Source of the DNA: a virus
Direction: 5' to 3' (one strand)
Length of the DNA stretch: 24,231 bases
IMG/VR virus record: IMGVR_UViG_3300042445_001169
Location: 1-24,231 of that record
The number at the start of each line of letters is the position of its first letter. Position 1 is the first letter of the stretch. The position numbers were made by a program, and so were the translations under genes. The notes beneath the pieces were generated by a model. That model was given only the letters and a program-made list of their open reading frames with translations. It was not told the DNA's origin and searched no databases. Below are positions 2,325-22,846 of the stretch, piece after piece.

Positions 2325-2978
2325 TTATGATTTACAAAAATTTATGTGTCTAGTTAACCCTTGTTTACTAAACATCTTTTTACACTTATAACACTCGCAA
2401 TTTTTTTCCATTATAATACCTTTATTATATGGCTGTATTCCTCTAGACTTTCTTGTTTCTGATATTTTCTTTTTGGTATCTTCAGTTCTATGTTTACCTT
2501 TTCCGTAGGTTCCATTTAACTCTTTCCATTTCCTCAATTTATCTGAACTTTTAAATCTAGATTCTAAATTAAACATAGGATTGGAATCTTTCATTCTAAT
2601 GCTAACAAGAGTTCTCGATTCATGAGTTTTATTCATTGATGTCATTCTTATAGAACATAATCTTTTATATTCTTTAGCTTTTTCTGAATTATAATCAATT
2701 CTATTTCCACCACTACCTCTATTAACAATATTGTAACAATTAGGATTATTAGCTATATCAAATAGGCTAAGAAATCTTTCTTCAAAATCAAACGCTTCTT
2801 TTCTTGTACTAAAGAATCTCAATTTTTCGGTTATAAAATTGTCTTTACCATATTTTAGTATAGCTTTTTTTAATGTCTTACCAGATCCATTATAAATCTT
2901 TTTTGTACCTGAACCATAGTAGCATTTATTATTAACAAGATTTATAGTCTTATAAAAATAATACTCCTGATTAATCAT
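2325..2978 (-). CDS. GIY-YIG homing-type endonuclease with NUMOD3 and C-terminal zinc finger
   Basis: Free-standing endonuclease of 217 residues. The N-terminal GIY-YIG fold is seen at YYFYKTIN (6-13) and CYYGSG (19-24), with the metal-binding Glu probably in FEERF (65-69). A NUMOD3-like basic motif with GKHRTEDTKKKISETRKS lies near 161-178. The last 22 residues hold a C196-x2-C199-x11-H211-x3-C215 zinc finger. This layout, nuclease followed by DNA-recognition modules, is that of I-TevI/Seg-like enzymes. The gene is clearly more AT-rich than nrdA and fits tightly between a 45-aa gene (8-bp overlap) and nrdA (10-bp gap). That is the expected position for a mobile endonuclease gene which cuts its neighbour, here probably nrdA, in endonuclease-free relatives. 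Confidence 0.88.
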   Translation of the reverse strand: MINQEYYFYKTINLVNNKCYYGSGTKKIYNGSGKTLKKAILKYGKDNFITEKLRFFSTRKEAFDFEERFLSLFDIANNPNCYNIVNRGSGGNRIDYNSEKAKEYKRLCSIRMTSMNKTHESRTLVSIRMKDSNPMFNLESRFKSSDKLRKWKELNGTYGKGKHRTEDTKKKISETRKSRGIQPYNKGIIMEKNCECYKCKKMFSKQGLTRHINFCKS

Positions 2979-11204: not shown

Positions 11205-11785
11205 TTCTTTAACTTATTAATTGCAGACTTGACTTGATCCGATAGCTCGTACTTCTTGGATAGGTTCTTGAACACATCCTCAGACTTGAGGCCAATGTTA
11301 TCGACAACATAGTTGACCACCTTGCCCCAGTTCTCATCACCCACCTCAAGAGCCACCTTAGCAGTTGACTTAGGAGCGATAGCCTTAGGCTCGTCAAAAA
11401 ATTCTTCTTTGTTGTAGATGTTTAAAGCTAGTCCATGTAGTGCAAGAGCCTTAACTGTGCATCTTTGTATGGCCTTGTTTGTATCAAAAGAAGTGATCTT
11501 ATCTAATCGAATAGACGCATTGCGTATATCCATAATTGGGAGATACTCTATGTGTTCAATATTATTAATTGTAACACCAACTTTTACAAATGCAGTCATA
11601 CCATCTGTGAAATAATTAACACCATTCTCTGTCTCAAATACGGTGCGTTGAATATCTGGGTAATGTTCTTTTACTGCACCCCAGGCTGTGCTCCATGAAA
11701 TGTAGGATAAGTTTCCTCTCTTTTCCACCTTGCTTGAAAGGTTAATAGAGGATAAAGTTTTAAATACTGATTGCGTTTTTTCCAT
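11201..11785 (-). CDS. Single-strand annealing protein, DUF1071/Sak-like (Rad52-like)
   Basis: 194 residues. The N-terminal pattern VEKRGNLSYISWSTAWGAVKEHYPD (20-44), then strands around GMTAFVKVGVTINNIEHIEYLPIMD and the helix NKAIQRCTVKALALHGLALNIY, matches DUF1071/Sak-type annealing proteins, which have a Rad52-like fold and pair complementary single strands. The C-terminal 50 residues form a separate helical domain after an Ala/Pro/Lys linker (KAIAPKSTAK). It forms a recombinase pair with the exonuclease downstream. An HNH endonuclease gene overlaps its start by 26 bases, the typical position for a homing gene beside its target. Confidence 0.88.
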   Translation of the reverse strand: MEKTQSVFKTLSSINLSSKVEKRGNLSYISWSTAWGAVKEHYPDIQRTVFETENGVNYFTDGMTAFVKVGVTINNIEHIEYLPIMDIRNASIRLDKITSFDTNKAIQRCTVKALALHGLALNIYNKEEFFDEPKAIAPKSTAKVALEVGDENWGKVVNYVVDNIGLKSEDVFKNLSKKYELSDQVKSAINKLKK

Positions 11786-12317
11786 TGTATTTATTGATTA
11801 TATTATTATTTAATTCATAATTTACTCTTGCATTGTGGGCTTCTTCTTCCGTATCAAATAAACCTAAATAAATCTTTTTACTATTTAAGTTTATGTATGA
11901 TTCAAACTTATTGCATATTTTAGATAAACTTACGCCAGGATATTTGCTAGATGTTTTAGTCATAGACCACCTGTGACATGAATTTTCCATACGAGATACC
12001 CATTCTAAATTACAAAGTCTGTTATCAGAAGTGATACCATTTATATGATTTACTTGTGTGCAATTTTCTCCTCTATGTAAACCAAAATTATTAGCAACTA
12101 ATACGTGAACATAGTATGCTTTAGTTATCTGATTAATTGTTAATCTTAATTGGAGATAACCGTTTTTCACTCGACCAGGACTCATTATTTTTTCTAAACG
12201 AAGCATAGTAGAATTTTTGCCATTCTTGTCTATCCTTTGTAATCTTTTAATTCGACCATGATCACTAACCTGATACTTACCTTCATAACCTTCGATGTCT
12301 TTCCATACTTCAGTCAT
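11760..12317 (-). CDS. HNH homing endonuclease with NUMOD4 and AP2 domains
   Basis: 185 residues from ATG at 12317. Domains in order: NUMOD4 (EVWKDIEGYEGKYQVSDHGR, 3-22), HNH (H71 in YVHVLVAN; N90-H91-I-N93; NRLCNLEWV, 99-107), and an AP2-like DNA-binding domain (KYPGVSLSKICNKFESYI, then KKIYLGLFDTEEEAHNA; about 125-169). AP2-HNH proteins are mobile endonucleases of phages and of the lineage ancestral to plant AP2 factors. The gene is more AT-rich than its neighbours and its end overlaps the annealing gene start by 26 bases. It probably cuts that gene, or the junction, in relatives that lack the insertion. Confidence 0.92.
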   Translation of the reverse strand: MTEVWKDIEGYEGKYQVSDHGRIKRLQRIDKNGKNSTMLRLEKIMSPGRVKNGYLQLRLTINQITKAYYVHVLVANNFGLHRGENCTQVNHINGITSDNRLCNLEWVSRMENSCHRWSMTKTSSKYPGVSLSKICNKFESYINLNSKKIYLGLFDTEEEAHNARVNYELNNNIINKYNGKNAISI

Positions 12318-12337
12318 AATAATATTTTTTAGAAAAC

Positions 12338-12419
12338 GATGCCCCATAAAATCCACCGCTCTTCACTTCGGTTTCAATTAAGGGGCATCAAATGCTTTAG
12401 GTTGCTATAATGTGAAGAG
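12338..12419 (-). ncRNA. Pseudoknot-capable structured leader upstream of the HNH and annealing genes
   Basis: Two perfect 8-bp pairings cross each other: GATGCCCC (12338-12345) with GGGGCATC (12382-12389), and CTCTTCAC (12359-12366) with GTGAAGAG (12412-12419). The 12359-12366 strand lies in the loop of a small hairpin (12355-12358 with 12369-12372). The region fills the gap between the stop at 12437 and the start at 12317. It could be a regulatory RNA, a terminator/antiterminator, or a remnant linked to the endonuclease insertion. Confidence 0.5.
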
Positions 12420-20222: not shown

Positions 20223-21779
20223 ATGATTGTCAAGGATATCGTCTTCGGAAGTGAAGGCAGACAGAAATTAATTAATGGTGTCAACACCATAGCTAATGCA
20301 GTTGGGTCTACTCTAGGTGCTAGAGGCAGGACAGTTCTAATTGAGTCGGAGAACCACGTTGGTGGCATTACAGTTACTAAGGATGGTGTGACGGTGGCTA
20401 AGTCAATTAACTTGATGGACCCGGCAGAGAACCTAGCGGTGATGATCATGAGGGAAGCATCTGAGAAGACGGCTAATTCGGCAGGTGATGGGACTACTAC
20501 ATCGATGGTGTTGGCTCAGGCCATCATACATGCTGCGATGGGTCTGCTAGATAAGCAGGACAATACCACACAGGTGCTGCGAGACGTTCAAGAGGCTGGT
20601 CTAAAGGTGGCTGAGGCGTTGAGCGAGATGTCAACAGAGATTACATCGGACAAGTTGGTGGACGTGGCGACTATCTCGGCTAATGGTGACGCAGAGATTG
20701 GGCAGATTATTGCTGATGCGTACAACCAAGTTGGTCTAAGTGGGGTGGTGACAGTCGAGAACTCGGCAACAGCTCAGACATATGCTGAGGTGGTGAGTGG
20801 GATGAAGATAGACAGGGGCTTCACAAGTAAGTACTTTGTGACAGATACCAGAAAGCAAGAGGCTATACTAGATAAGCCATACATTTTGGTCACAGACCAG
20901 GCTGTTACAAATCTTAACGACATACTTCCTATCATTGAGTTCATACTTCAGGGTAAAAGATCGCTACTAATCGTTGGAGAAGTGGAGGAGAATGCGCTAA
21001 ATACGCTAAATGTCAACAAAGTCAAGAACAATTTAAAGATTTGCACCATTATTCCTCCGTCATTTGGCTACAAACGCCATCAGATTATGCAGGACATAGC
21101 AATTGCGACCGGTGCTAAGTACTTTAGCGAGCAAACAGGGGACAATTTGATGATGGTCACGGTCGATGACCTAGGACGTGCGGACAAAGTGGTCAGTGGC
21201 CGGTTCAATACGCTCATATTTGACGCAGTTGGAGAGGGAGAAGAGAGAATAGCGGAGCTGCAAGAGCAGATGAGCGCAGAAGAGTCAGCAATTGAGAAAG
21301 AGTTCTTAAAAGAACGCATCGCTAACCTAGGTGGTGGCGTGGGTGTCATCAAGGTGGGTGCCAACTCAGACATTGAGCAGAAGGAGAAGAAGGACCGAGT
21401 GGACGATGCGGTGTGTGCGGTGCGTGCAGCACTAGAAGAAGGCATCCTGCCAGGTGGTGGCGTGGCACTTAAGGACATCGCTACCAATTTATTGGTAGCC
21501 GATAAGGGCACCGAGATATTACAAATGGCCATGCTCTCACCTATGATCAAAATACTTGCTAACGCAGGCATAGATGTGGAGGGGGCTGACTTTGATGAGG
21601 GTAAGCAGTTGTCAAAAGAAGGCATAGGAGTCAACGTGGCTAATGGGTCATACTGCCACATGATGAGCGTTGGCATTATTGACCCAACTAAGGTGACTAA
21701 AGAAGCTCTTAAGAACGCTGTGTCAGTGGCTACCACATTGCTATCCACAGAGACGGTCATAACTAATATTAGAGCATAG
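20223..21779 (+). CDS. groEL: Phage-encoded chaperonin GroEL
   Basis: 518 residues, alignable by eye with GroEL along its length. N-terminus KDIVFGSEGRQKLINGVN; ATP-binding KDGVTVAK (53-60) and D89-GTTT (GDGTTT); apical-domain segment PPSFGYKRHQIMQDIAIATG; GGGVGVIKVGA (370-380); D395 in KDRVDDA, matching the catalytic Asp398 of E. coli; LPGGGVAL (409-416). It lacks the C-terminal Gly-Gly-Met tail (ends NIRA) and is shorter than the host protein (about 545). A short GroES follows two genes downstream. It probably folds phage structural or replication proteins. Its own promoter lies at 20172-20202 and a hairpin follows the stop. Confidence 0.97.
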   Translation: MIVKDIVFGSEGRQKLINGVNTIANAVGSTLGARGRTVLIESENHVGGITVTKDGVTVAKSINLMDPAENLAVMIMREASEKTANSAGDGTTTSMVLAQAIIHAAMGLLDKQDNTTQVLRDVQEAGLKVAEALSEMSTEITSDKLVDVATISANGDAEIGQIIADAYNQVGLSGVVTVENSATAQTYAEVVSGMKIDRGFTSKYFVTDTRKQEAILDKPYILVTDQAVTNLNDILPIIEFILQGKRSLLIVGEVEENALNTLNVNKVKNNLKICTIIPPSFGYKRHQIMQDIAIATGAKYFSEQTGDNLMMVTVDDLGRADKVVSGRFNTLIFDAVGEGEERIAELQEQMSAEESAIEKEFLKERIANLGGGVGVIKVGANSDIEQKEKKDRVDDAVCAVRAALEEGILPGGGVALKDIATNLLVADKGTEILQMAMLSPMIKILANAGIDVEGADFDEGKQLSKEGIGVNVANGSYCHMMSVGIIDPTKVTKEALKNAVSVATTLLSTETVITNIRA

Positions 21780-21785
21780 CAAACG

Positions 21786-21807
21786 ATTATACTTAAATAA
21801 GTATAAT
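21786..21807. promoter_or_regulatory. Inverted repeat after groEL (ATTATACTT-N4-AAGTATAAT)
   Basis: Nine-base perfect arms (21786-21794, 21799-21807) seven bases after the groEL stop and 52 bases before the next ATG. It has no U-tract. It could be an mRNA-end hairpin or an operator for the HTH protein encoded downstream. Confidence 0.55.
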
Positions 21808-21858
21808 ACTTGAATATATCATTCATATTTATTATATTTACACCAAAATACATATAAT

Positions 21859-22398
21859 ATGAAAGAAAAAAGATTGATATATTCGCTATGCTGTCCTTTT
21901 ACTAACGCTGTGCATTATATAGGCAAGTCTACAAGTGGTATGCTTAGGCCAATGCAACATCTAACTAAAAGCCATTCTGACAAAGTAATTGAATGGGTAG
22001 ACAATCTAAAACAAATAGGTCATGCACCTACTGTTAAAGTATTAGAGTACGTTAGTGTAAATGATGATTTAGATAGCAGGGAGAGATACTGGATACAAAA
22101 AGAGATTAACAATAATTCTTTATTGCTAAATAGCTGTCTAGTAACTCCCCTCTTAATTACTCATAACATTGACCAGCTATTGGGAAGTGGTGAAGGTATG
22201 GAGTTTTTGAAAATAGCAGAGTTTGTTAAAACAAAACGAAAGCAAGTTGGGTTGAAGCAAGAGGAATTTGCTGAAAAATCAGGGGTAGCATTAACTGTGG
22301 TTAGAAAGATAGAACAAGGTAAAACAAATCTAAACTTAGAAAGTATTTTACAAGTGCTAAAAATGTTTGGATGTACTATTGATGTTGTGAAAATTTAG
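21859..22398 (+). CDS. GIY-YIG nuclease fused to a HipB/Xre-like helix-turn-helix
   Basis: 179 residues with two clear domains. N-terminal GIY-YIG nuclease (5-95): LIYSL with Y8, HYIGKS with Y20-I-G22, R30 in GMLRPMQHL, and E75 in SRERYWI, so all catalytic positions appear intact. C-terminal Xre-type HTH (118-175): FVKTKRKQVGLKQEEFAEKS followed by GVALTVVRKIEQGKTNLNLE and ILQVLKMFGCTIDVV, very close to HipB-type antitoxins. The fusion suggests a nuclease tethered to, or regulated through, a specific operator. Large palindromes lie just behind the gene (22395-22446) and may be its sites. It sits between groEL and groES and is more AT-rich than both, so it may be an inserted selfish gene. Its role could be homing, phage exclusion or self-regulation. 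Confidence 0.88.
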   Translation: MKEKRLIYSLCCPFTNAVHYIGKSTSGMLRPMQHLTKSHSDKVIEWVDNLKQIGHAPTVKVLEYVSVNDDLDSRERYWIQKEINNNSLLLNSCLVTPLLITHNIDQLLGSGEGMEFLKIAEFVKTKRKQVGLKQEEFAEKSGVALTVVRKIEQGKTNLNLESILQVLKMFGCTIDVVKI

Positions 22399-22413
22399 TA
22401 GTAATACTACTAA
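22395..22413. promoter_or_regulatory. Palindrome TTAGTAGTA-A-TACTACTAA
   Basis: Nine-base perfect arms around one base, overlapping the stop codon of the GIY-YIG/HTH gene. Candidate operator or mRNA-end hairpin. Confidence 0.55.
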
Positions 22414-22424
22414 TTTAGCAGAAA

Positions 22425-22446
22425 ATATTAACTTATAAGTTAATAT
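22425..22446. promoter_or_regulatory. 22-base perfect palindrome between the GIY-YIG/HTH gene and groES
   Basis: ATATTAACTTA followed by its exact reverse complement, no spacer. Size and symmetry are typical of an operator for a dimeric Xre-type regulator such as the one encoded just upstream. Confidence 0.6.
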
Positions 22447-22588: not shown

Positions 22589-22846
22589 ATGAAAGTAATC
22601 GGAAAGAATATTCTAATCGTCCCAATGGAGGAGGAGACAAAGTCCAAGGGTGGACTGATCATGACCGCAATGGACACAAATGAGCTACGCTACAAGAAAG
22701 CTACCGTGGTGTCACAAGGCTCACTAGTAGATGGCATCAAGCCAGGCTCATTCATTTACTTCGACAGAGCATCTGGCCACAGCATCCGCATCAATGAGGA
22801 CCTATATACGGTCATCTCTGAGAAAGATGTTGTGGTGGTTCTTTAG
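22589..22846 (+). CDS. groES: Phage-encoded co-chaperonin GroES
   Basis: 85 residues with GroES layout: N-terminal strand KVIGKNILIVPME, mobile loop ETKSKGGLIMTA (residues 16-27, in which LIM takes the place of the GroEL-binding IVL), KKATVVSQG, the turn DGIKPGSFIYFDR, and the C-terminal strands LYTVISEKDVVVVL. It is shorter than host GroES (about 97) and seems to lack the roof hairpin, a feature also of some phage co-chaperonins that need a roomier cage. It should cap the GroEL encoded at 20223-21779. The final 35 bases overlap the end of a convergent gene. Confidence 0.92.
   Translation: MKVIGKNILIVPMEEETKSKGGLIMTAMDTNELRYKKATVVSQGSLVDGIKPGSFIYFDRASGHSIRINEDLYTVISEKDVVVVL

Follow-up and report, generated by a model that had tools for sequence, protein, structure and literature searches.

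The 24,231-nucleotide stretch analysed here (the window; virus record IMGVR_UViG_3300042445_001169) carries, between groEL and groES, a gene encoding a GIY-YIG domain fused to a HipB-type helix-turn-helix (HTH), and we consider it likely that this is a free-standing phage homing endonuclease gene, which would home into paired operator-like sites and probably represses its own synthesis. Among the roles that the first-pass annotation, made from the letters alone, had offered for such a protein, a self-limiting homing nuclease is favoured by the occurrence of empty and occupied alleles, by the varied contexts of the gene and by hipB-type operator-like sites both at the insertion sites and at its own promoter; binding, cleavage, homing and autorepression are predicted from these sequences. 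The HipB-type domain and the predicted target appear to be new. If the reading is right, a selfish gene would have recruited a toxin-antitoxin DNA-binding domain for its targeting, giving a homing endonuclease family with a target that can be read from sequence and tested directly.

The fusion protein and its family

As had been proposed, the open reading frame encodes a GIY-YIG domain and an Xre/HipB-type HTH in one chain of 179 residues with an ATG start (Table 1). The HTH is matched by HTH_3 at residues 123-176 (E=1e-12) and by NCBIfam couple_hipB/Y4mF (TIGR03070) at residues 118-173 (E=6e-19; 67.8 bits, below the family cutoff of 71.65). The Pfam GIY-YIG profile (PF01541) matches residues 6-82 with 19.1 bits, under its gathering cutoff of 22.6 bits, which is a curation threshold and not a biological feature; despite this score the protein is assigned to the GIY-YIG nuclease superfamily by its motif residues and fold, and cleavage activity is predicted. 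In an AlphaFold model built from 34 aligned relatives (pLDDT 81, pTM 0.51), strands and helices succeed one another as in GIY-YIG domains at residues 6-84, and a low-confidence linker leads to a helical HTH from residue 115. Foldseek matches in the PDB, all with E-values above 0.001, include the UvrC GIY-YIG domain (1yd6) and I-TevI (1ln0) for the nuclease half (TMt 0.61-0.64), while the best matches of the HTH half are HipB structures. The best full-length structural match in BFVD, 29% identical over the whole chain, is A0A6J5KZ42 of an uncultured phage, whose annotation as an 'HTH_XRE domain containing protein' rests on the HTH only.

Table 1 Features of the fusion gene and its surroundings, in window coordinates
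Feature	Position	Strand	Basis or remark
GIY-YIG - HipB-type HTH fusion gene, 179 aa	21859..22398	+	ORF, profile matches, full-length relatives
GIY-YIG nuclease domain, aa 6-91 through N91 (Y8, Y20, G22, R30, H34, E75, N91)	21874..22131	+	Pfam, alignment, structure model, Foldseek
Linker, aa 93-110, low-confidence, probably flexible	22135..22188	+	structure model
HipB/Y4mF-type helix-turn-helix, aa 115-174	22201..22380	+	profile matches, HipB-like relatives, structure model, Foldseek
groEL, left flank of insertion	20223..21779	+	
groES, right flank of insertion	22589..22846	+	
Inserted segment, 676 bp, relative to empty allele in L066	21779..22454	+	pairwise alignment
Operator-like dyad O1 TTATACTTAAATAAGTATAA	21787..21806	.	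-72 from ATG; motif search and matrix
Second, degenerate operator-like dyad O2 TTACACCAAAATACATATAA, abutting ATG	21838..21857	+	score 7.5; same place in many relatives
Promoter-like sequence between O1 and O2, TTG at 21810, TATATTTA at 21833-21840	21810..21840	+	by inspection

Scans of viral contigs returned 21 relatives at 55-80% identity across nearly the full chain, along with two at about 36%; searching with the nuclease half added further viral relatives. Translated family members carry a HipB-like HTH at the C-terminal end, except one that is cut off at a contig end; L063-L065, which rank among the weakest matches, differ in their C-terminal parts and are not counted in the family. The 34 aligned relatives comprise 32 distinct members and two from a second, 32%-identical group. 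All 32 distinct members, which come from uncultured phages, keep the fusion and the catalytic residues, and no relative has the two domains split. Among the GIY-YIG residues that had been picked out at first reading, Y8, R30 and E75 are invariant in the 34 relatives (as are I7, H34 and N91, among others) and Y20 and G22 are at least 90% conserved. Pairwise dN/dS for the nuclease domain is about 0.04-0.17, and in the pairs measured both domains are under purifying selection. A domain swap is possible in L014-L016: the HTH of L014 (residues 115-174) is identical to that of the window at only 29 of 60 residues, against 70 of 92 for the nuclease half, and its sequence looks closer to standard HipB.

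The two-domain order, which the first-pass annotation had thought to look for in phages and Bacteroidota genomes alike, is recurrent in uncultured phages; in 84,980 bacterial and archaeal genomes, scanned by pattern, the nuclease half had no relative. When the protein was searched against phage and plasmid records, the matches listed covered the HTH alone. The closest HTH relatives found are standalone HipB-like proteins, mostly from Bacteroidota and 62-76% identical (80 loci kept). In the part of the literature covered, a GIY-YIG domain joined to HipB was not found described.

Occupied and empty alleles

The gene is mobile, judging from an empty allele in a near neighbour and from members in unrelated contexts. 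The neighbour, L066, has groEL and groES products 96% and 100% identical at the amino acid level and a groEL-groES gap of 135 bp, and its alignment with the window breaks at 21778 and 22455. Near relatives that differ in whether an intergenic site is occupied or empty are what is expected of a free-standing homing endonuclease gene. The groEL/groES context is common to no relative from the full-chain search of viral contigs, whose neighbouring genes differ, and family members occupy many unrelated genomic contexts.

In other phages the groEL-groES gap houses other nuclease genes, which speaks for the homing reading. A second GIY-YIG gene with a different HTH lies there in L067, L070-L073 and L086, a third GIY-YIG-like gene in L068, and NUMOD4-HNH-type genes in L067, L071, L079, L086 and L132 (one of these was scanned); in many distant relatives the gap is only 1-5 bp. 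Palindromes on both sides of the fusion gene had been put forward for binding tests with the protein, and both are real. The one at 21786-21807 is a conserved operator-like dyad. Those at 22395-22446, GTAGTAATACTAC and TTAACTTATAAGTTAA (22397-22445), were rejected as sites of the fusion protein, since several relatives, some with the gene and some lacking it, have one or both in their groEL-groES gap; they belong to the phage groEL-groES spacer. Elsewhere in the window, a NUMOD4 - HNH_3 gene with a weak AP2 match (11760-12356, minus strand) resembles in layout the HNH genes of the relatives' groEL-groES gap, and an open reading frame at 2325-2978 (minus strand), beside a ribonucleotide reductase frame (527-2314), is GIY-YIG-like by eye; for it Pfam gave just a weak NUMOD3 match (E 0.054).

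The patchy presence of the fusion gene bears on two other roles suggested at first reading, a one-protein toxin-antitoxin, in which the nuclease would be a toxin restrained by its own HTH, and a superinfection-exclusion repressor. The HTH does resemble the antitoxin HipB, and operator-like dyads flank the promoter. However, HipA was found in none of 20 gene-bearing records, many of them fragments (control records were positive in 4 of 14), nothing specific points towards exclusion, and a gene that is missing from close relatives and changes contexts does not suggest a resident regulator. We regard either role as very improbable.

Operator-like dyads at the promoter and at insertion sites

The sequence between O1 and O2 resembles what we take to be a Bacteroidota-type promoter. 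A motif search upstream of 22 members recovered a dyad of 18-22 bp whose start often lies some 72 bp upstream of the ATG; its log-likelihood was 88-90 against 22-40 in shuffles. In the promoters of bacterial HipB-like genes, TTATATG-N6-CATATAA is repeated about three times, one copy every 40 bp. With a matrix trained exclusively on 79 bacterial hipB promoters, a score of 6 or more was reached in the upstream regions of 26 of 31 phage members as against 2 of 341 other phage ORFs, and both of the latter sit just downstream of the fusion gene, in L010 and L011; dyads are weak or lacking upstream of the gene in L023, L051, L057 and L060. Escherichia coli HipB binds TATCC-N8-GGATA, a layout that is the same as that of the phage and Bacteroidota dyads (PMC3376134). 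Operator-like sites of the hipB type stand at the fusion gene's own promoter, where the protein is predicted to bind. A covariation between recognition helix and half-site (K/R at position 146 going with TACCC) was suggestive in five members and is not claimed: L041, which combines an ALTV helix with a TACCC site, and L003, which has GGG on one side, contradict it, and it is also undercut by O1 belonging to the flank in aligned pairs.

Relatives were picked for one of the flanking genes and then scanned with the same matrix; in those without the fusion gene, dyads were found at the positions that it occupies in other phages. They are present in the groEL context (L069 and L127; also L068, L067, L071-L073 and L086, which carry other nuclease genes), beside ribonucleotide reductase (L224, L225, L231, L232, L241, L244, L248 and L257), in the DNA polymerase region (L304, L380 and L381), in the context of the gene that follows L012's copy (L344, L345 and L351) and in 34 of 80 loci of the exonuclease context; family scans of neighbouring genes gave several of them no name. 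Over three contexts, 57 matches scoring at least 9 in gene-less relatives fell in the gaps, which total 213 kb, and 2 in the other 1,183 kb. With permuted matrices the same gaps yielded 3.2 matches on average and 24 at most, so part of the gap signal comes from AT-rich palindromes. Neighbouring dyads in gene-less relatives are spaced by 40 bp in 12 of 21 pairs, the spacing of host hipB promoters. No record has the pair pattern more than once, and 10 of 30 records have it (none of five gene carriers against 10 of 25 others, which is not significant alone); several members are closely related and these counts are not independent. Pairs 40 bp apart also stand in phages without the gene at L344 1170, L360 2007, L377 491 and L380 5350, and the tested records among these four had no HipB-like match. 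Nor was a HipB-like or HTH_3 match found in 16 records chosen from dyad-bearing loci, several of them fragments; in these records the dyads therefore do not seem to be operators for any repressor that could be recognised.

Empty and occupied alleles were also compared around the dyads. In the two closest pairs, which come from unrelated contexts, both breakpoints fall within the spacer between dyads: counted from where the first dyad starts, they lie at 25 and 39 for L473/L474 (exonuclease), and at 25 and 38 for L016/L225 (ribonucleotide reductase). Three further pairs, L003/L381, L404/L405 and L013/L231, have a replaced stretch that overlaps the spacer plus part of a dyad or beyond, the L013 copy being inserted in the opposite orientation, and in L012/L344 most of the dyad pair is replaced. 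Occupied sites such as those of L473, L016 and L003 retain one dyad on each side of the gene. L066, the window's nearest empty relative, has no operator-like dyads, and a dyad pair at the groEL locus was seen solely in groEL relatives further away, L069 among them, so the target of the window's own copy is deduced from its relatives.

The gene-less dyads might instead be scars, promoter operators remaining after a gene once present was deleted. They are indeed similar to the gene's upstream operators, and in L016 and L003 O1 of the gene is at the same time the left dyad of the occupied site. However, most pairs in empty genomes have the 40-bp spacing of host hipB promoters, whereas dyads in gene promoters are spaced by 51 bp or other values; the occupied sites with a dyad on either side are not those of a gene with both dyads upstream; and in the exonuclease context dyad-bearing loci without the gene far exceed gene carriers (34 against 3). 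We therefore give the scar explanation little credence.

Proposed mechanism and comparison with known systems

We propose the following for how homing might take place. The HipB-type HTH, probably dimeric, would bind dyads of the form TATAY-N8-RTATA, and the GIY-YIG domain, held on its flexible linker, would cut in or beside the spacer between two of them. Repair of the break from a gene-bearing genome would copy in a cassette of about 0.6-0.7 kb, and insertion would split or remove the dyad pair, so that the carrier would be protected. In gene-bearing alleles one dyad often lies near -72 and another at about -21, around a promoter-like sequence; self-repression would follow, as for I-TevI, the protein probably limiting its own synthesis.

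I-TevI, the GIY-YIG homing endonuclease of phage T4, represses its own promoter through an operator related to its homing site (PMC2988022), and is by analogy a precedent for the proposal of the first-pass annotation that the nuclease represses its own promoter. Both proteins have an N-terminal GIY-YIG domain, a linker and a C-terminal binding domain that contains an HTH, and in both an operator near the promoter resembles the homing site, which is a prediction for the fusion protein (PMC2988022, PMC10448857). Unlike I-TevI, which is intron-encoded and has a zinc finger in its linker, the fusion gene is free-standing, its linker is short and its HTH is a predicted dyad reader of HipB type. It also resembles the seg genes of phage T4, which are intergenic, intronless, of GIY-YIG type and variable between related phages (PMC2988022), but its binding domain differs from theirs and it is inserted at its predicted recognition site. 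The cleavage sites of characterised free-standing homing nucleases are usually distant from the gene (PMC2988022), in T4 by hundreds to thousands of bases, and the coincidence of insertion and predicted site seen here counts against the homing reading.

The exchange of binding domains has parallels as well, T5orf172 genes showing it in modular form among phage GIY-YIG-type nucleases (PMC10448857). Odn of phage ICP1, a T5orf172 nuclease fused to a RepA_N domain, likewise bears the DNA-binding domain of another element's regulator on a GIY-YIG-superfamily nuclease, and it needs semi-palindromic repeats for cutting (PMC8263062). Odn differs in targeting a satellite origin and in its reversed domain order, whereas the fusion gene has a HipB-type binding domain and is found inserted at repeats. 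The HTH is like those of HipB and Y4mF antitoxins in sequence and in the geometry of its dyads, and unlike them in being fused to a nuclease, in scoring below the family cutoff and in having no HipA partner in the records searched.

Odn, which cuts a satellite origin by copying the binding domain of the initiator (PMC8263062), is also the precedent for supposing that offence or defence is the main job, with HipB-type operator arrays cut in the host chromosome or in competing phages and insertion being secondary. Host hipB promoters share the dyads and their 40-bp spacing, and the nearest relatives found for the HTH are standalone HipB-like proteins of Bacteroidota. Yet a selfish homing gene is expected to show just such a patchy, context-hopping distribution and insertion at a recognition-like site, and no link was seen to a particular satellite or host target; this explanation seems to us improbable.

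The homing reading raises the question of why phages retain copies of a host antitoxin operator. More speculatively, and with considerable doubt on our part, Bacteroidota phages may carry copies of the host hipB operator, often paired and preserved in position and spacing despite the lack of a HipB-like or HTH_3 match in the 16 records above, that bind host HipB as decoys or host-read switches; the nuclease would have borrowed the HipB domain to home there and might also cut host hipB promoters.

Around the insertions, direct or inverted flank-to-flank repeats were significant in just a few members and were set aside as a general feature. The gene adjoins tRNA-like sequences in L042 and L056, as judged by eye and by flank similarity. 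A repeat, CAAAGTAAGGGTA, lies upstream of the gene in unrelated contexts, twice and 33 bp apart in L022 (1622 and 1655) and L023 (4304 and 4337), and in reverse in L018 (4610).
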